Source: a virus. Taken from it: a stretch of 47,078 bases of DNA. Of this stretch, positions 10,374-42,307 are shown one piece after another. Each line of letters opens with the position of its first letter. The stretch's first letter is position 1. The stretch lies in IMG/VR virus record IMGVR_UViG_3300009176_000018, positions 1 to 47,078 of that record; one strand, written 5' to 3'. The position numbers and the translations under genes were made by a program. Under the pieces are notes generated by a model. It searched no databases and had not been told where the DNA came from. It was given only the letters and a program-made list of their open reading frames with translations.

Positions 10374-10456
10374 TGTTGACGATCTTCGCCATCTTCCTTG
10401 GCGCCTATGTCGGGTGGCTCGCCGTCGTGTTCTACGACGGGATGACGCAGCCTTAG
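10373..10456 (+). CDS. Tiny membrane protein, 27 aa
   Basis: The ATG overlaps the SSB-like stop (TGATG). The peptide MLTIFAIFLGAYVGWLAVVF continues to YDGMTQP and is a single transmembrane helix. Its stop overlaps, tail to tail, the stop of the minus-strand gene at 10453. Function unknown; coupling and hydrophobicity support it as real. Confidence 0.5.
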   Translation: MLTIFAIFLGAYVGWLAVVFYDGMTQP

Positions 10457-10665
10457 TAGGCCTTCTTGCCGCCGAAGGGCGGGGCCTGCTTTCCTTTGAA
10501 GTTGGCCAGGTTACCCCTGCCGCTGCCGCCGATCTTGGGGATCGTCGGCGGCGGTGTCCTCGCGGGAGCCGGGGCCTTGGGCCCTGTCTGTGGCGAGGCG
10601 AGATCCGGGATGCCGGTGACGGCTTGTCGCATCATGTTGGCGATCGGGCTGGATTTCTTTGCCAC
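10453..10665 (-). CDS. Small proline-rich protein, possible virion component
   Basis: A GTG start at 10665 is chosen because AAGGAAGGAAACC precedes it directly; longer in-frame starts lack a site. The 70-residue product is basic and rich in Pro, Gly and Lys (KAPAPARTPPPTIPKIGG... FKGKQAPPFGGKKAY). Residues 6-18 (SPIANMMRQAVTG) resemble SPLSRLFQSAMG in the virion protein at 19623-20138, hinting at a structural role. It is isolated from the late operon by a plus-strand gene and a terminator, so it needs its own promoter in the 86-bp gap upstream. Confidence 0.65.
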   Translation of the reverse strand: MAKKSSPIANMMRQAVTGIPDLASPQTGPKAPAPARTPPPTIPKIGGSGRGNLANFKGKQAPPFGGKKAY

Positions 10666-10751
10666 GGTTTCCTTCCTTTCTGACGATACAGGCGTTCTCC
10701 ATCCTGTTAGCATGGCTTTGTTCTCGGGCAACACAAGATGGAGGATGAAGC
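10666..10751. promoter_or_regulatory. Divergent intergenic region
   Basis: These 86 bp separate two genes that point away from each other, so promoters for both should lie here. I see ribosome binding sites at both ends (AAGGAAGG for the minus gene, GGAGG for the plus gene) but only weak sigma70-like boxes. No inverted repeat stands out. Confidence 0.4.
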
Positions 10752-11510
10752 ATGCTTATAAGAGAAACTCTGAAGTTCGCTGCCGCCTTGGCGGCAGTCG
10801 TGGCGGTCACGGCATGGGCCCCGCCGGCCAATGCGGTTCTCATGGTGACGATGCAGGACGAGTTGGGGGCGACGTTTCACTGCGTCGACAACGGCGGGGC
10901 TTGTGACTTTTCCGGCGCGGCCGACAGCCTCCTGACCCTCAACAATGCGGTCGGGAGCTTTCAGGTTACCGGCACCATCTCGACCTCGCAGACCGGCCTG
11001 CTTAACCTACTCTCCTTGGTTAACTTCGGCGCGATCAATAACGACACGGCGGCGCATACGCTCAATATGTATGTCAGCGACACCGACTTCTTGGGGCCGG
11101 TGAGCGGCATCGCCAGCAGCGCCGGAATTCTGTTCTCGAACGCCGTGGGGTCCGGGCCGTCCAGCCTGGAGTTCTACGCCGACACCGGCAACACCCAGGG
11201 GGCCAATCTGATCAACTTCCCTGGCGTGCTTCTGGCTTCGGCGGTGCAGACACCGACGACCAACCCGCAGCAATTTCTCGGCAACGACTTTGCCGCGTTC
11301 AGCGATCCCAACCTGTTTTCGATGACCCAGGTTGCCCACATCAATTTGCGTGGTGGCGGCTCGTTCACCGATTTCGGCATGAACATGCAGAACGTCAACG
11401 CCGTGCCGGTGCCGGCGGCCCTGCCGTTGCTCGGCAGCGTCGTGGCCGGCTTCGGGGCGTTCGGCGCGTGGCGTCGGCGCAAGCTCTCGGGCGGCTCAAC
11501 CGCACACTGA
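10752..11510 (+). CDS. Exported protein with VPxPA-type C-terminal sorting tail
   Basis: The 252-residue protein has a Sec signal peptide (residues 1-28, ending PPANA), a Ser/Thr/Asn/Gly-rich beta-type body, and a C-terminal tail at about 218-244: VPVPAALPLL, a short hydrophobic span, then WRRRK. This tripartite tail matches VPLPA-CTERM/PEP-CTERM sorting signals, processed by exosortase/archaeosortase-like enzymes and common in Alphaproteobacteria surface or matrix proteins. GGAGG precedes the ATG by about 7 nt. It is flanked by its own likely promoter and terminator, so it behaves as a moron gene. Function may be host-surface alteration; inference. Confidence 0.88.
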   Translation: MLIRETLKFAAALAAVVAVTAWAPPANAVLMVTMQDELGATFHCVDNGGACDFSGAADSLLTLNNAVGSFQVTGTISTSQTGLLNLLSLVNFGAINNDTAAHTLNMYVSDTDFLGPVSGIASSAGILFSNAVGSGPSSLEFYADTGNTQGANLINFPGVLLASAVQTPTTNPQQFLGNDFAAFSDPNLFSMTQVAHINLRGGGSFTDFGMNMQNVNAVPVPAALPLLGSVVAGFGAFGAWRRRKLSGGSTAH

Positions 11511-11559: not shown

Positions 11560-11632
11560 CTGAAGAGCAATCGGCCTGATGGCCCGAGGGGCGTGGTTCG
11601 CCCCCTGTCTCTCGCGTCCGCGGGTCCGGTAG

Positions 11633-11671
11633 GCGAGGGGGGTTGCCCAAGTTTCATCCCCCCTCGCTTTT
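11633..11671 (+). terminator. Rho-independent terminator
   Basis: A perfect 10-bp stem GCGAGGGGGG / CCCCCCTCGC with a 15-nt loop is followed by TTTTCTC on the plus strand. It closes transcription from the sorting-tail gene just before the convergent late operon ends at 11675. The hairpin also forms in late-operon RNA but lacks a good U tract there. Confidence 0.75.
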
Positions 11672-11674
11672 CTC

Positions 11675-12418
11675 TCAGATCCAGCTCTGCATGGCGATGT
11701 CGCGTTCCTGTTTCGCCTTGCCGCCGGGATAGCCGATGGTCGGTAGTGTGAACAGCCCGGCAAGCCGGCTGAGATCCGGGTCCGCGTTGGGGGCGACGCC
11801 CTCTGTGACCGGCGTCACTGCCAGGTTCATCGGGCCAAGGCCGCCACCGCCGGACATTCCGCCACTCGAGCCGCCGCCCCCGCCGGACGACAGGTCGCCG
11901 AGGGCGCTGCCGTCGAAGACCCCGGCGAGACTCTCTCCCGTGTGGTCGGAGCCGGGGCCGACGTTCGGCTGGGTCGCGCCGGGGACGGGGGTTTCGGGCG
12001 AGGCGTAGGATAGTTGCGGCTGGCCGGCGCCGGTGACCACGGCGGCGGCAGCCGGGAGCGGTGCGCCCTTGCTGCCGGCAGCGCCGGTTTCCCCGGTCTC
12101 GCCGTTGGCTGCCATGTTCTCGCCCAACGTCTTGTTGACGTCGAACTTGTGGCCTTTGGCCGACATGCGCCGAAGCGTGATCGGGTCCCAACGTTTCAGG
12201 GGGATGTTCTTGGCGACCGCGAGCTGAAGATGATAGGGCGCGTCGAGCGCCGTCGGATACTGGGCGAGGTTGACGCCGGCTTTCGAGGCCCAGTCCTTCC
12301 ACGTCCCGTCGGTGATCTGGAAGAAGCCGCGGGCACGGCCGGAAGAGGTGCTCTGGCGCTCGTTGGTGACGTTTTTGTTGCCGCTCTCGAAGCCGAGAAA
12401 GTCGCTGAACCAGCCCAT
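11675..12418 (-). CDS. Virion lysozyme/transglycosylase-like protein
   Basis: The 247-residue protein has GRARGFFQITDGTWKDWASK (residues 27-47) and later PYHLQLAVAKNIPLKRWDP, recalling lytic transglycosylase/lysozyme folds with the G-x-F-Q-I motif. The candidate catalytic Glu20 lies closer to this motif than in standard SLT enzymes. The C-terminal half is Gly/Ser/Pro-rich and ends with LAGLFTLPTIG (219-229), shared with the next upstream protein. Last gene of the late operon. Likely cuts peptidoglycan during DNA entry. Confidence 0.7.
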   Translation of the reverse strand: MGWFSDFLGFESGNKNVTNERQSTSSGRARGFFQITDGTWKDWASKAGVNLAQYPTALDAPYHLQLAVAKNIPLKRWDPITLRRMSAKGHKFDVNKTLGENMAANGETGETGAAGSKGAPLPAAAAVVTGAGQPQLSYASPETPVPGATQPNVGPGSDHTGESLAGVFDGSALGDLSSGGGGGSSGGMSGGGGLGPMNLAVTPVTEGVAPNADPDLSRLAGLFTLPTIGYPGGKAKQERDIAMQSWI

Positions 12419-32821: not shown

Positions 32822-32976
32822 CAGCGCCCCCACGGGAAGCCCGCGAGGACGACAATAAGTGCGATGGCCCAGACGGCGAAGAGGGTCGCTGAGATTTCAC
32901 GAGTGATCAAAGACCAAACGAAGCTGAGGATCAGGAAGACGAGAGCGAAAACGTGGACGATGAAGTCGGCGGACAT
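32821..32976 (-). CDS. Small two-span membrane protein (lysis region)
   Basis: A 51-residue protein (MSADFIVHVFALVFLILSFV then ISATLFAVWAIALIVVLAG) with two hydrophobic helices separated by a short charged turn. The start overlaps the upstream stop. A holin or antiholin is plausible, as it lies next to the endolysin. Confidence 0.6.
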   Translation of the reverse strand: MSADFIVHVFALVFLILSFVWSLITREISATLFAVWAIALIVVLAGFPWGR

Positions 32977-33137
32977 CAGCCCAGCCTCCCGGTCAAGACA
33001 AGGATCAGCAGGACGACGAAGATCACGCCGATGATCCCAGCCGGGTACGGCCCCCAGCTTTGGCTGTAAGGCCAGTTCGGCAGCGCCCCGACGAGGAGCA
33101 GGACGAGCAGGATGAGCAGGATGAGGGAGATGCTCAT
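32976..33137 (-). CDS. DUF3309-like small membrane protein
   Basis: A 53-residue protein MSISLILLILLVLLLVGALP, then NWPYSQSWGPYPAG and IIGVIFVVLLILVLTGRLG. Two spans with a central WPYS..WGY/PG turn match the DUF3309 family of tiny bacterial membrane proteins. ATGA overlap with the amidase stop and TGATG with the next gene. May be a holin-type or host-derived small protein. Confidence 0.7.
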   Translation of the reverse strand: MSISLILLILLVLLLVGALPNWPYSQSWGPYPAGIIGVIFVVLLILVLTGRLG

Positions 33138-37855: not shown

Positions 37856-38353
37856 TTACGCCTCTTGCGCCGACTCCGATAGCGGACTTCCGCGCATCAC
37901 GACGTCCCAGGCGTCGCCGCGCCAGGACCGCTCGCCGTCCTGCTTCTCGAAGTCCTGCGCCATCAGCCGAGCCTCGACCGCTTGCCGGGCGCGGGCCAGG
38001 GACGTGGGACCGAAGCTGAAATCCTTGCCGATCCGGCCGTACCAGTCGCGCCCGACCCGCATCGCCCAGCCGGCAGCATCACGCGACAGGCCGGGACGGG
38101 TCAGCTTCTGCGTGATCTCGTTGCACGCCACCCACTCGAAGCTCTCTCCCCCCTCAAGCAACCAACTAAGTCGTTGATTTCGTTGAGAATGACTTCCCAA
38201 ATTTTGCCCGTTAGGCAGGGAAGTGCCGGAAGCAGGATCAACCCCCCTCAAGCGCATGTTCTCCGCACGCTTGCGGCAACGTTCCGAACAATAGGTCTTC
38301 CCACGCCAGGGCGTGAACTGCCTACCGCAGCTCGAGCAAGCGATCGTTTTCAT
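37856..38353 (-). CDS. Zinc-ribbon protein of unknown function
   Basis: From MKTIACSSCGRQFTPWRGK the 165-residue protein has CSSC (residues 6-9) and a second CSERC cluster (21-25), a zinc-ribbon-like motif. The rest (WVACNEITQKLTRPGLSRDA; WYGRIGKDFSFGPTSLARAR) has a conserved look, seen in phage proteins near tails or terminase, but I cannot name it. It is preceded by the 364-bp non-coding region. Confidence 0.7.
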   Translation of the reverse strand: MKTIACSSCGRQFTPWRGKTYCSERCRKRAENMRLRGVDPASGTSLPNGQNLGSHSQRNQRLSWLLEGGESFEWVACNEITQKLTRPGLSRDAAGWAMRVGRDWYGRIGKDFSFGPTSLARARQAVEARLMAQDFEKQDGERSWRGDAWDVVMRGSPLSESAQEA

Positions 38354-38526
38354 CGGGGCCATCCGCGAAAGCTAGCATTCCCAGGCGAAAGCGCAAAACC
38401 CGAAGTTAATAAAAATCGAATTTTTGGCTGTCGTGGTACCAACGCCTCCGCGCGCGCCGGCCGAGGGGGCCAGGGGGCCGACCCCAGGTGGCGGGCCGCG
38501 GCCTTGCCCGCCCCGCGCGAGTACTG

Positions 38527-38554
38527 CCATACAAGATACTACCATACAAGATAC
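38527..38554. repeat. Two 13-bp direct repeats CCATACAAGATAC
   Basis: Copies at 38527-38539 and 38542-38554 have a 15-bp period. The sequence is AT-richer than its surroundings. Possible protein-binding iterons. Confidence 0.75.
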
Positions 38555-38679
38555 AAGGGCTGAATTCCGCCATTCCTCTATGGGTCGCAGCACACCCTAG
38601 AGTCGACTACTGCCTTAGTAAGGTAGTGGTCGCTAGCCTAAGTCGCTGATAACGTTAGAGGATTAGGATGCGCTCGAGT

Positions 38680-38712
38680 CCTGGTCACCACCTGGTCACC
38701 ACCTGGTCACCA
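38680..38712. repeat. Three tandem 11-bp repeats CCTGGTCACCA next to terS
   Basis: Units at 38680-38690, 38691-38701 and 38702-38712 are identical, with an 11-bp period near one helical turn, followed by CCAGG. Each contains the near-palindrome GGTCACC. They end 5 bp from the terS stop codon. Phage small terminases often bind repeated sites in or beside their own gene, making this a candidate packaging-recognition site. Confidence 0.8.
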
Positions 38713-38717
38713 CCAGG

Positions 38718-38981
38718 CTACAGGAGTCGGTAAACGGCCTTGCCGCGGGGTGACGCCAGGCGAGCGAGTCGCGCTATCTCGTGCTCGAGCTCGGCAGCAC
38801 TCATTTCCCCTAGTGGACTCTCACTTCCTGCACGCTTTTCAACTTGTAAGCGTCCGATTTCACCTAGCAACTCGAGAAGCGTTCTAGCCGCCGCTGCCCG
38901 TGCTGCGGCGGGCGCCGAAATATCGCTTGCAACACTTCGTAATGTAGCAATTGCAACGCTTTTCAGATCAATTTCTGACAC
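38718..38981 (-). CDS. Terminase small subunit-like protein (TerS)
   Basis: A GTG at 38981 gives an 87-residue protein, MSEIDLKSVAIATLRSVASD, then SAPAAARAAAARTLLELLGE and GEMSAAELEHEIARLARLA. This matches the pattern of small terminase subunits of high-GC phages (ATLxxIAxDxxAPAAARxxAAxTLLEL...MSxxELExEIARL). The frame is open further upstream (to 39227) but that sequence has no protein-like character, and a zinc-protein gene overlaps there. Packaging repeats follow its stop. Confidence 0.7.
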   Translation of the reverse strand: MSEIDLKSVAIATLRSVASDISAPAAARAAAARTLLELLGEIGRLQVEKRAGSESPLGEMSAAELEHEIARLARLASPRGKAVYRLL

Positions 38982-39358
38982 GCTAATCGGCGTCCAAATG
39001 CCAAGAGTCCTTCCCCCGGAACCGACTCCACCGTCCCACGAGCTGCAAAGGCGATAGTGGCAAGTGCCTGCCTTGCCGCCGTGGCATTGACGAGTCGAAT
39101 ATTCGGATTTCGCTGGCGTGCTTTCCGCACCGCTACAGCAAGGCCGCGGTGCGAAGGACAACACGAAACGCTTTGCACCGCGTCGCGCTTGCACCGTTCG
39201 CCCGTGCATTTCGCGATGGCGCGACATTGCCGCCGTCCGCTGCCGGGCGAGAAATCACCAAAGCCGGTTCGCTTTGCCCATGTCGCAGCGTGCATCCCTG
39301 GACCAGCGCCTTTCGGATATGGTCGGAACGGTGCTCGCCATTTCGGCCGTGCTCGCAT
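38963..39358 (-). CDS. Cys/His zinc-finger-type protein upstream of terS
   Basis: A 131-residue frame (the start may also be at 39295). The region GRRQCRAIAKCTGERCKRDA and then VSCCPSHRG resembles the C-x-A-x(n)-C-x-x-x-A...C-x-x-H-x-G pattern of HGG-type zinc motifs that precede or are fused to small terminases in some phages. The end overlaps terS by 19 nt in another frame, so either two proteins or a frameshifted fusion is possible. Weak ribosome binding site. Confidence 0.5.
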   Translation of the reverse strand: MRARPKWRAPFRPYPKGAGPGMHAATWAKRTGFGDFSPGSGRRQCRAIAKCTGERCKRDAVQSVSCCPSHRGLAVAVRKARQRNPNIRLVNATAARQALATIAFAARGTVESVPGEGLLAFGRRLACQKLI

Positions 39359-39414
39359 TCCCCACGAATAACCGACTCGAGCCTACCGATGCAAACGGCA
39401 TTTGCCGAAGCATA

Positions 39415-39492
39415 GGGCGCCCGTAGACACGAAAAAGCCGGTAGGGGGTATCACCCTACCGGCTTTTTGGTTTCTCGCGCCTACGGGCGCCC
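39415..39492. repeat. Nested inverted repeats around a strong hairpin
   Basis: Outer arms GGGCGCCCGTAG (39415-39426) and CTACGGGCGCCC (39481-39492) are a perfect 12-bp inverted repeat enclosing the terminator stem. The whole 78 bp could extrude as one long cruciform. It separates the small-gene early operon from the late operon. Confidence 0.85.
39432..39468. terminator. Bidirectional rho-independent terminator
   Basis: A perfect 15-bp stem AAAAAGCCGGTAGGG / CCCTACCGGCTTTTT with a 7-nt loop gives a U run on either strand. On the minus strand it ends the polymerase/small-gene operon; the late operon begins about 70 bp beyond. Confidence 0.92.
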
Positions 39493-39536
39493 TGTTAGCT
39501 TTCCGTCGCCCATATGATCAGGAATAGCAAAGCAAG

Positions 39537-39560
39537 AATGATACCGCCCATGGTATCATT
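39537..39560. promoter_or_regulatory. 9-bp inverted repeat, possible operator or RNA hairpin
   Basis: AATGATACC (39537-39545) and GGTATCATT (39552-39560) are perfect inverted copies around GCCCAT. It lies right at the stop of the 72-aa gene and could be an operator or a 3' hairpin. A tiny 18-codon hydrophobic reading frame also starts here (39551, minus) but its ribosome site is weak. Confidence 0.45.
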
Positions 39561-39774
39561 CTACCTTTTCAGGGATGCGCACCGCCTTTCCGTCGATCCA
39601 AGCGTAGTTGACTGGATCGGTCGACTCCACCGCGCGGTGCGCGGTAGTAAGAGTCCAATAACGATACTTATCCGCCGCACATGCCGCGGCTTCATCCTCA
39701 GTAGCAAAGCGCAAAGCGTTATCGTACCAGCGCTCACCTTCGCCTTTTACCTGAACTTCCGGTTTCCAGCTCAT
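39556..39774 (-). CDS. Hypothetical protein, 72 aa
   Basis: The start at 39774 (MSWKPEVQVKGEGERWYDNA) lies 2 nt after the previous stop. The sequence (LRFATEDEAAACAADKYRYW, then VNYAWIDGKAVRIPE) matches a common pattern of small phage proteins (WxxxxLRFxTxxEAxxYAxxLxxRWxxvxxxRVxxxxxPVNYxWxxG). Function unknown, but this pattern is frequent in phage early operons. Confidence 0.8.
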   Translation of the reverse strand: MSWKPEVQVKGEGERWYDNALRFATEDEAAACAADKYRYWTLTTAHRAVESTDPVNYAWIDGKAVRIPEKVE

Positions 39775-39776
39775 AG

Positions 39777-39929
39777 CTATTCGTCCTTCTCCGTAGTGTC
39801 GGGCAAAGCATCCGCCAAATCGCGGACAGCCTCCGCCAAATCGCCTTGTTCCCAACAAGCGACAACTTGCCGCGCCAGTAAGACAAGTTCCCAGTAGCCG
39901 GCTTCCCAATCGATACCTTCATCAGACAT
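39777..39929 (-). CDS. Hypothetical acidic protein, 50 aa
   Basis: The start at 39929 is set by AAAGGGGAAACACT before the ATG. The protein MSDEGIDWEAGYWELVLLAR continues to VACWEQGDLAEAVRDLADAL and an acidic end. Small helical protein, function unknown. A longer in-frame start lacks a ribosome binding site. Confidence 0.7.
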   Translation of the reverse strand: MSDEGIDWEAGYWELVLLARQVVACWEQGDLAEAVRDLADALPDTTEKDE

Positions 39930-39942
39930 AGTGTTTCCCCTT

Positions 39943-40032
39943 TCAATGGGAGAGAGTGTAAAGGATATCGCCACACGCTAGCGCGCCAAAGCATATGACG
40001 TACCAGGATGCGAGCACATAGAAAGCTTTCAT
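39943..40032 (-). CDS. Tiny membrane protein, 29 aa
   Basis: The ATG overlaps the GP88-like stop (ATGA). MKAFYVLASWYVICFGALAC is a single hydrophobic span, ending GDILYTLSH. Its stop lies 14 nt before the next start. Plausible but short. Confidence 0.5.
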   Translation of the reverse strand: MKAFYVLASWYVICFGALACGDILYTLSH

Positions 40033-40778
40033 GCTATTTTCCCCTTGTTGCGCACTACGAAACCGCTGGTGTCGCGCTTTGCCTTAAGGCCTTTCGGCAG
40101 TAGACCGATAACCGTTCCCTGGCGTCCGCGCGGATCCAGCTGGCGTAGATCGTGCTTATCGCCATCTATCACCCTGAAACCATGCCAGCGCTTAGGAACG
40201 GACTCGAAAACGACCGCAACGTTGACGCCGCGGTTCAAGAGCGCGACGCATTCCAACTCGTTCGTCTCGGAGCGTGAAAACGTCAGGTGAAGATTTGCTG
40301 GCAACGCTTTGTCGAACCGCCGCGGATTTTTCGTGTAGTCGACAAAATCCACATCAGGAAAAGTGTCGTAAACGCTAAGGCCGTTATAGCGCACCGACTC
40401 CCACGCTATATCGGTAGAACCGTTCATACGGACGCAAAGCTTTAGATCCATTTGGTTCGCTCTATGCACGAGCAACTCAATAGAACGAACAACGTCTCTC
40501 AAATAGGCCTGGCGTTCCCGCATGAACCGACGCGCTTTATCAGCGCGCGACTTACGGACGCTATTCCCCTCCAAGTCCGAGTCGTCTTTCACCATAGCAG
40601 CCTGTCCCGAATAGAGTCCGAGACAAAGCGCAATGCAGCCGGCCGAAGCATGAGGACACAAATTACCGGCACCAGCCGTGCGGTGCGGCGCCATGTAGTG
40701 AATCCCGTTAAGGTATCCAAAGCTTTGCGCTTTGACAGCCTTAGCTGAGTCAACGGAAAAGATTCGATTTTGCATCAC
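40029..40778 (-). CDS. GP88-like phage protein
   Basis: The 249-residue protein (FSVDSAKAVKAQSFGYLNGI; NLCPHASAGCIALCLGLYSG) fits the GP88 group of phage proteins with a Cys-x6-Cys-x3-Cys cluster, here at Cys41, Cys48 and Cys52, and downstream RMNGSTDIAWE and VDYTKNPRRF. Function is unknown. The codon use is lower in GC than in the virion genes. Its start overlaps the upstream stop. Confidence 0.75.
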   Translation of the reverse strand: MMQNRIFSVDSAKAVKAQSFGYLNGIHYMAPHRTAGAGNLCPHASAGCIALCLGLYSGQAAMVKDDSDLEGNSVRKSRADKARRFMRERQAYLRDVVRSIELLVHRANQMDLKLCVRMNGSTDIAWESVRYNGLSVYDTFPDVDFVDYTKNPRRFDKALPANLHLTFSRSETNELECVALLNRGVNVAVVFESVPKRWHGFRVIDGDKHDLRQLDPRGRQGTVIGLLPKGLKAKRDTSGFVVRNKGKIA

Positions 40779-41071
40779 AACACCTTTTTTACAACGCGAC
40801 TATCCCGATAACCCGCCGCGCGAATAGCGCCACGCGCTGACGAAATAGCCATGTCAATTCGCTTTAACGTTTGCCGACTACCCGCCGCTACCAACAAAGC
40901 CCGCGCATCAAGCAAATGCGCAAGCGCGACCATGGCGAGACGTTCCTTCGAACCCATGTCGGGAACCTTGTTCACCCACGATCCACAACAAGCGCATTGC
41001 CATTGCTGATAATCCTCGGACTCGGGAACCAACAATTCAGCGCAAAAGGGACACAAGCGTAAACGCGCCAT
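40775..41071 (-). CDS. Zinc-ribbon protein, 98 aa
   Basis: The ATG at 41071 overlaps the upstream stop (TGATG), so a 15-codon upstream extension is rejected. MARLRLCPFCAELLVPESED and CACCG make a CPFC...CACC zinc ribbon at residues 7-10 and 25-28. The C-terminal part is helical (ALAHLLDARALLVAAG). Function unknown. Confidence 0.75.
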   Translation of the reverse strand: MARLRLCPFCAELLVPESEDYQQWQCACCGSWVNKVPDMGSKERLAMVALAHLLDARALLVAAGSRQTLKRIDMAISSARGAIRAAGYRDSRVVKKVL

Positions 41072-41295
41072 CACAACACCTTCACAATGCAGCCGTCTTT
41101 CACGACCGCGCGACAATACCAGCGATGCGGTGCAGGATAGTGTGGCCCTTCAAGCGTAATCGTGCCGTTTTGCGGTTCATTCCCACCAAATGGTCCAGGC
41201 TGATGATAGGTAACCGGCGGGCCCGCTAGAACGTTAGCTGACGCTACCGCATGTTTTAGCGCGGCTTTGGTTTTAAAGTTACGATCAGTATACAC
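41071..41295 (-). CDS. Hypothetical protein, 74 aa
   Basis: GTG start at 41295, with GGAGTG upstream inside the end of the preceding small gene. MYTDRNFKTKAALKHAVASA then GPFGGNEPQNGTITLEGPHY and WYCRAVVKDGCIVKVL. Small phage proteins with this VxxxxPGPFG...GxxxlEGPHYPxPHxWYA pattern recur in early operons. Function unknown. Confidence 0.8.
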   Translation of the reverse strand: MYTDRNFKTKAALKHAVASANVLAGPPVTYHQPGPFGGNEPQNGTITLEGPHYPAPHRWYCRAVVKDGCIVKVL

Positions 41296-41299
41296 AGCG

Positions 41300-41449
41300 T
41301 TACACTCCGATCGGACGGTAAGACCGTGAAATGCAGAACGAAAACGTCAATCTGCCGATTTTAACGAAGCGAATACCGCCGACTCGGCGATAATCGGCAT
41401 TGATGACGCTTCGGGCGAAAGCGTGATAACGATCTAGATAGTGTCTCAT
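41300..41449 (-). CDS. Small basic protein, 49 aa
   Basis: GAGGA lies 8 nt before the ATG. MRHYLDRYHAFARSVINADY then RRVGGIRFVKIGRLTFSF is basic and has no Lys/Glu bias of an anti-frame. It ends 4 nt before the next gene start. It is too short for automated lists but the ribosome site and spacing support it. Confidence 0.65.
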   Translation of the reverse strand: MRHYLDRYHAFARSVINADYRRVGGIRFVKIGRLTFSFCISRSYRPIGV

Positions 41450-41800
41450 TTTCAAGTCCTCGATTAGGGTTCGCTAGATGCGACCCGCCCTAAATGGACT
41501 CAAATTCAAGTCACGTCAAGCCCCCCTCGCTAAATTATTTCGGGCAAGGCCTGCCGGCCGGCCGGACAGCTCGAACCAAGCGCAACGGCGGAAACGCTAA
41601 GGAAAAGCGCGCGGCTGCGCGGCTGCGCGGCTGCGCCCCCGTGGGGTCAAAAATCCCCTAATATATCAATCGAAGTTGGCATGGTTTTGGACCCAAACGA
41701 TTTTGGATTTCGCCTTGGGCAAACCCGGCAGGGACAGATCAAAACCCGCTAATACGGGAGCCGGAGTTGGAATGGTTTCGAAGCCAAACGGTTTTGAAAC
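41450..41800. other. Non-coding gap with low-complexity and degenerate repeats
   Basis: No gene accepted in 351 bp. It contains three tandem 8-bp units GCGGCTGC at 41611-41634, GGCC-rich palindromic sequence near 41550-41565, and the first copy of a 42-bp imperfect direct repeat (41675-41716, second copy 41766-41807, 33 of 42 identical). A promoter for the small genes downstream is likely here but no clear boxes are visible. Confidence 0.5.
41611..41634. repeat. Three tandem 8-bp units GCGGCTGC
   Basis: GCGGCTGC repeats three times without a gap in a non-coding stretch. It may be slippage-prone. Confidence 0.8.
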
Positions 41801-41807
41801 TCACCTT
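41675..41807. repeat. 42-bp imperfect direct repeat, two copies
   Basis: Copy 1 is 41675-41716, copy 2 is 41766-41807; 33 of 42 positions match. Copy 2 overlaps the last codons of the 95-aa gene. It suggests that the 3' end of this gene was duplicated, or that the sequence serves as a binding site. Confidence 0.75.
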
Positions 41808-42088
41808 CCGAGGCCGAACCAGACCTCCTGGTCCTCCGGCGAGCCAAGACGATGGTGACGCACCTCGATCCCCGGTTTTTTATGAGCGCGGCAGCGACGA
41901 TTGATCCAGTGATGCTCGAGCGTCTCCTCCACAGCCCAGAAGTCGAACAGCTCTCCGCACCAGGCGCAGTGCGACACCACGCGCCGCAGGATCGTTGTCC
42001 GGCCATCCCTGGTCTCGTGCTCCAGCGTCTCGTCCGTAACCTCGTAGACCTGCTTCCCGTTCGTGATCAATTTTGTCTGGCCAGGCAT
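41801..42088 (-). CDS. Cys/His-rich small protein, 95 aa
   Basis: The protein MPGQTKLITNGKQVYEVTDE has CAWC (41-44) and a later HHWINRRCRAH, a CxxC...H...C zinc-type arrangement. Its start lies downstream of the iteron-rich region, so it may have its own promoter there. It might bind nucleic acid. No family recognised. Confidence 0.75.
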   Translation of the reverse strand: MPGQTKLITNGKQVYEVTDETLEHETRDGRTTILRRVVSHCAWCGELFDFWAVEETLEHHWINRRCRAHKKPGIEVRHHRLGSPEDQEVWFGLGR

Positions 42089-42133
42089 GGGTGTAATCTC
42101 CAGTTGTTTTTGTCAAAACTTGTGACGCGACTA

Positions 42134-42170
42134 CAGGGGGGGACCCCGTACCCGTTCTACGGGGTCCCTG
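42134..42170. other. Strong hairpin
   Basis: GGACCCCGTA (42141-42150) and TACGGGGTCC (42158-42167) form a perfect 10-bp stem with a 7-nt loop, flanked by CAGGG / CCCTG. No U tract follows in either direction. It may fold in the leader of the 95-aa gene mRNA or in an origin. Confidence 0.7.
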
Positions 42171-42191
42171 TGGTGCGTCGATTTTCGTCTA

Positions 42192-42292
42192 TGTGGTGCA
42201 CTGTGGTGCGTCTTGTAAGTTATTGATTTTGTTACTCATTTTTTTACCTACCGTTACACCCACAACCGCTTTCTGCACCACAGTGCACCACA
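42192..42292. repeat. 18-bp perfect inverted repeat around an AT-rich core
   Basis: TGTGGTGCACTGTGGTGC at 42192-42209 is repeated as its reverse complement at 42275-42292. The 65-bp spacer has runs such as CATTTTTTTACC and is much poorer in GC than the genome. Each arm holds two 8-bp TGTGGTGC units one helical turn apart. Confidence 0.9.
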
Positions 42293-42307
42293 TCACTGTG
42301 GTGCACC

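Follow-up and report, generated by a model that had tools for sequence, protein, structure and literature searches.

What is a protein with the layout of an exosortase substrate doing in a phage genome? Such substrates are usually regarded as proteins of the bacterial surface and matrix. Here we analysed a gene of a soil phage from IMG/VR (virus record IMGVR_UViG_3300009176_000018, positions 1 to 47,078; this whole 47,078-nt stretch is called the window below). The plus strand of the window carries replication genes (helicase, exonuclease, and a gp2.5-like SSB), and the minus strand carries a late operon with a major tail protein, a tail fibre, a VanY-type peptidase, and an amidase endolysin. 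The gene product (MLIRETLKFAAALAAVVAVTAWAPPANAVLMV...NAVPVPAALPLLGSVVAGFGAFGAWRRRKLSGGSTAH) runs from a predicted signal peptide through a beta-sandwich core to VPVPA, a hydrophobic helix, and a terminal RRRK cluster. The coding statistics of the gene match those of the neighbouring genes and the codon usage of the phage (GC3 0.82, score 59). The features of the locus are collected in Table 1.

Table 1. The CTERM gene and its surroundings (positions in the window; residues of the gene product).
Feature	Position	Strand	Basis
Gene 22, small late-operon protein	10453..10665	-	gene calls; homologue directly after the gene-24 homologue in G004
Upstream gap, 86 bp, divergent from gene 22	10666..10751		gene calls
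Ribosome-binding-like GGAGGA before the start of the CTERM gene	inside 10666..10751		sequence
Family-A CTERM protein gene, 252 aa	10752..11510	+	coding scores; G002 homologue; 64 family-A loci in IMG/VR
Predicted Sec signal peptide, residues 1-28, AxA-type site PANA/V	10752..10835	+	sequence
Predicted all-beta core, residues 29-214	10836..11393	+	AF2 pLDDT 86, pTM 0.75
Predicted C-terminal sorting signal VPVPAALPLLGSVVAGFGAFGAWRRRK, residues 218-244	11403..11483	+	TIGR03370 16.6-18.4 bits; PEP-CTERM in homologues
26-codon tail module (78 bp)	11403..11480	+	protein-identical to the tail of the family-B gene in G051
Inverted repeat just past the stop codon	11520..11559		RNA fold -29.9 kcal/mol, z -2.3
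Terminator-like hairpin, then TTTT	11631..11673	+	RNA fold -27.6 kcal/mol, z -2.2; missed by the strict scan
Gene 24, the second late-operon neighbour of the insertion	11675..12418	-	gene calls; comparison with relatives

The window protein has both ends expected of a PEP-CTERM-type substrate. At the N-terminus, the predicted signal peptide (KFAAALAAVVAVTAWAPPANA, with cleavage before the following V) forms a helix at residues 3-21 in the AF2 model, and A26, A28, and L30 are at least 90% conserved across its homologues, which we call family A. At the C-terminus, a motif, a hydrophobic helix, and a basic cluster follow one another. We scanned the window with a tail rule made of these three elements, which shuffled tails pass at 0.4%. 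Three of 435 six-frame open frames of at least 60 aa passed the rule, and only the CTERM gene frame also had a signal peptide. The combination of a signal peptide with a VPVPA-hydrophobic-RRRK tail, first proposed in a sequence-only reading of this DNA, is thus confirmed and occurs once in the window. Neither Pfam (at E up to 1) nor PHROG gave a match to the protein, and no convincing sequence relative was found in the PDB. A homologue with 71% identity (dN 0.26, dS 1.65) is present in G002, a 117.7-kb tailed-phage contig whose make-up is unlike that of the window phage.

The tail itself (VPVPA-hydrophobic-WRRRK) was compared with curated sorting-signal models. VPLPA-CTERM (TIGR03370) was the best-scoring model and matched at the correct C-terminal position, with 16.6 bits at residues 218-244, and a six-frame scan of the whole record returned this one match only (18.4 bits, E 1.6e-4). 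Both scores are under the cut-off of 25.35, and the protein does not belong to VPLPA-CTERM in the strict curated sense. TIGR02595, with a cut-off of 16, gave 11.8 bits on the whole protein and 16.3 in the six-frame scan, and Pfam PEP-CTERM did not match the window protein. Taken alone, the window protein's own profile evidence is marginal. The homologues that were tested exceed the TIGR02595 cut-off, for example at 20.0, 18.4, 17.3, and 20.2 bits, and six-frame scans exceeded it in 22 of 36 phage records and in none of 14 control genomes. Homology settles the class of the window protein: Pfam PEP-CTERM matches 48 of the 50 aligned family-A members, with VPxPA-type tails instead in the window and G002 proteins, and PEPxxWA-CTERM matches 45. 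The profile search that the sequence-only reading had proposed therefore came out in two parts: the window protein falls below the VPLPA-CTERM cut-off, but the exosortase-type sorting signal is supported through the homologues.

Similar proteins are known from bacteria. PEP-CTERM/EpsH substrates (Haft et al. 2006, PMC1569441; PF07589, TIGR02595, NF035944) share the signal peptide and the motif-helix-basic tail, and they too have cores unlike known proteins and are often lone genes with an upstream gap. Unlike them, the window protein is phage-encoded with no exosortase found, and its tail has VPVPA rather than PEP. Exosortase profiles had no match in 28 phage records, which supports the proposed reliance on a host exosortase. 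The model for floc-associated PepA (NF033554) is matched by some family members. A relationship of the core to PepA was rejected, since the tested cores no longer match NF033554 after tail removal; only the tail is shared. More generally, tail-less cores matched no NCBIfam family at a meaningful score. TIGR03118 exosortase-interaction proteins place such a tail among cell-derived genes in hot-spring viral contigs (PMC11003980); the passage found names it in passing and connects it neither with a phage family nor with exchange of tails or their fit to a host. Our literature search found no paper on phage families of this kind.

Comparison with relatives indicates that the CTERM gene is an insertion between two late-operon genes. 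Genes 24 and 22 have homologues in G004 (terminase 87%) with 27 bp between them, versus about 1 kb in the window, and neither G003 (terminase 88%) nor G004 has a CTERM gene at this place. G005 (terminase 69%) does have one in the corresponding region, in the orientation of the SSB gene and with a different tail class. Gene calls bear out the orientation opposite to the late operon. The resemblance to a moron, also part of the sequence-only reading, holds for the extra gene between genes adjacent in relatives but not for base composition, which is that of the phage. Like phage morons and superinfection-exclusion genes, the gene is antiparallel to the flanking operon and present in some relatives only; unlike in them, a promoter of its own was not found by scan, and any role in exclusion is putative.

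The same reading had the gene bracketed by its own upstream gap and a terminator. The gap is present, and wide upstream gaps recur in the gene's homologues and in a second family, B, described below (medians of 89 and 142 bp in A and B versus 12 bp elsewhere). Bacterial PEP-CTERM genes are likewise described with large upstream gaps (Haft et al. 2006, PMC1569441). A strict scan around the window gene found neither promoter nor terminator. Nevertheless, the 164-bp downstream gap contains two hairpins, the second followed by TTTT, and a terminator 3' of the gene is therefore plausible. An own promoter as a general feature of the CTERM families is not supported, as sigma-70-like sites are not enriched upstream of family A and B genes (5/63 versus 31/495 other genes). 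The G002 homologue, unlike most members, has a good sigma-70-like TTGACG-17-TATGAT (upstream of 48714; in L110, within the 71 bp before 5947). Elsewhere in the window, a small DUF3309 membrane protein (32976-33137, minus strand) adjoins the endolysin, and the region 38000-42300, with the late operon on one side and the polymerase-side genes on the other, has lower GC (0.54-0.59) and weak gene calls.

The observation made on this single gene is larger than thought. Family members were gathered by scans with core peptides or patterns, without use of the tails, which placed family A at 64 loci on at least as many viral contigs and a second family, B, on about 53 viral contigs (55 loci, some of them fragments and two of them the ends of a single contig). 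In hhalign, the two families align at their signal peptides only, and their cores are by this comparison unrelated. These loci are of phage nature, since they contain genes for portal, terminase, major head protein, scaffold, RecT, and endolysin. Of 43 records scanned, 10 have a tyrosine integrase, and the window yielded none. For most members a function confined to lysogeny is therefore unlikely, with the proviso that records may be incomplete. The search for host homologues, suggested by the sequence-only reading, yielded no close cellular homologue in two narrow genome scans with the window protein and its G002 relative as queries. A tblastn search of plasmids and phage isolates also gave no close homologue, and tail-only tblastn of plasmids gave no match, though the low-complexity filter may hide some.

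The signal peptide and sorting tail occur together in each of the 98 members that are distinct and complete (55 A, 43 B), a figure with a mild bias because start codons were picked partly for signal-peptide likeness. Among other proteins of the same loci, 11 of 1369 have the tail, and 10 of these 11 also have a signal peptide. They resemble extra CTERM genes, in most cases near the family-A or family-B gene, whose tail class they share; this agreement says most in L095 and L171, because family-A tails are nearly always PExxxW. Second CTERM genes of this kind, whose cores differ but whose tails are of the neighbour's class, lie beside A or B genes at L115:6736-7533, L117:6835-7650, L134:6554-7264, L121:6778-7470, L095:5258-5977, and L171:6862-7536.

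Each family has tails of more than one class. Family-A tails comprise 50 PExxxW, 3 other PEP, and 2 VPxPA, the last in the window and G002 only, and family-B tails comprise 18 PxPxxGAGLPG, 16 VPxPA-like, 5 other PEP, and 4 PExxxW. A terminase search for relatives of the window phage led to G005, G017, and G021. The G005 homologue of the window protein ends in VPEPSTWAMLGFGFIGLALAGWKRNK, a PEPSTWAM tail, and the tail class thus changes on a homologous core. G017 and G021 carry the unrelated core B with the tail TPIPAAGLLFPAGLAGLGMFGHWRRRK, and phages near the window phage by terminase (84%) have core B with a tail similar to that of the window protein, TPIPAA...G.WRRRK. An exact match to the window tail, 100% identical over 26 residues, ends the family-B protein of G051. 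Over the tail module, the two DNAs have 9 differences, all synonymous (dN 0, dS 0.55), which indicates that selection acts on the tail peptide. BLASTN of the window against the 9-kb G051 locus matched the tail and no other DNA, and the whole 48-kb contig has no DNA block over 200 bp in common with the window. The proteins that G051 and the window share are mainly the endolysin (61%) and the DUF3309 protein (65%), along with the products of a few small genes, as if the two phages infected the same or similar hosts. The tail DNA would either have moved between phages, or both copies would have come from one host gene.

One tail class of family B, VPGPIVGAGLPGL...RRRR, is found in 18 of its 43 members, including L082, L092, L093, L175, L181, and L189. 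No NCBIfam model matched L082, the one member tested, and its tail class may therefore be an undescribed sorting signal. A DUF3309 gene adjoins the CTERM gene in G017 and in G051 (L209:3349-3504).

Could the tail be a mere membrane anchor? The protein would then face the periplasm on a single C-terminal helix, for instance alongside lysis proteins, with no exosortase involved. This would suit the family-B genes that adjoin an endolysin/DUF3309 cassette in G017 and DUF3309 in G051, and exosortase cleavage of the window protein is itself a prediction from its sequence. However, a PEP, PEPxxWA, or VPxPA motif is needless for anchoring, yet all 98 members keep one. Homologues also exceed the cut-offs of curated sorting-signal models, and the exact tail residues are kept under silent DNA change. 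We consider a mere anchor unlikely.

The core was modelled with AF2 from 50 sequences, which raised the pLDDT to 86 from the 32 obtained with two sequences. The model has a 12-strand core and a C-terminal helix at residues 223-246, and Cys44 and Cys51 are invariant in the 50 sequences. Its nearest PDB folds are largely carbohydrate-binding beta-sandwiches at Z 7-10 (SGBP-B 9.9, CBM61 8.8, CBM4, CBM16), with tailspike and viral jelly-roll domains close behind. These matches are modest: Foldseek gives a TM of about 0.3, and the highest VIA Z, 9.9, lies only slightly over the 7-8 that models lacking a clear match usually reach; the absence of any one family from the list was not counted as evidence. 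The predicted fold weakly supports binding of a surface sugar.

The conservation of the core also bears on a decoy model, in which the protein would keep the host exosortase busy and so stop the sorting of host EPS proteins during infection, with the tail as the active part. It is the tail that unrelated cores have in common, and some phages have two CTERM genes side by side, both as a decoy would predict. A pure decoy would not need a conserved core, though, and the family-A core is well conserved (dN 0.19, dS 1.37) with invariant residues, which makes this explanation quite improbable. A chance tail on a structural or fibre-like protein, suggested by the tailspike and capsid jelly-roll likeness of the fold, can be set aside as very improbable, given a signal peptide in all members, the rarity with which shuffled tails pass the rule, and a gene that is antiparallel to the late operon and absent from the close relatives G003 and G004.

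We therefore favour, as the likely explanation, a moron-like phage accessory gene encoding a secreted beta-sandwich substrate of the host exosortase. The window protein would be exported by Sec via its signal peptide and then held in the inner membrane by its C-terminal helix, so that VPVPA lies on the periplasmic side and RRRK on the cytoplasmic side. Host exosortase would recognise VPVPA, cut, and send the cleaved product to the cell surface or the exopolysaccharide matrix; processing by a host sorting enzyme is quite probable. The lectin-like core could then act on surface polysaccharide, most likely masking or altering it during infection, either to prevent phages from re-adsorbing to the infected cell or to debris, or to fend off rival phages. 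From the modelled fold, such a surface function is a tentative proposal. We infer that the window protein might bind EPS or take part in superinfection exclusion; the sequence-only reading had suggested the latter too, together with a possible change to the host envelope or biofilm. The nearest experimental hint to the role of such proteins in bacteria, by analogy, comes from Zoogloea resiniphila, where PEP-CTERM proteins are reported as required for floc formation (PMC9012009).

The tail would act as a host-matched cassette, exchangeable between unrelated cores. Judged from the sequences, we lean slightly towards a tail matched to the host. It is slightly more likely than not that phages of many lineages keep a repertoire of secreted cargo and fit it with interchangeable tails matched to the exosortase of the current host, where cores and tails recombine separately and tail class reads out the host. 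Use of this tag by two families, found on over a hundred viral contigs, would mean that phages place proteins in the surface or EPS of the host through its own machinery, a route absent from the papers we found. The tail common to unrelated cores offers natural experiments on how specific exosortases are, and tails that do match hosts would help to tell which hosts uncultured soil phages infect.
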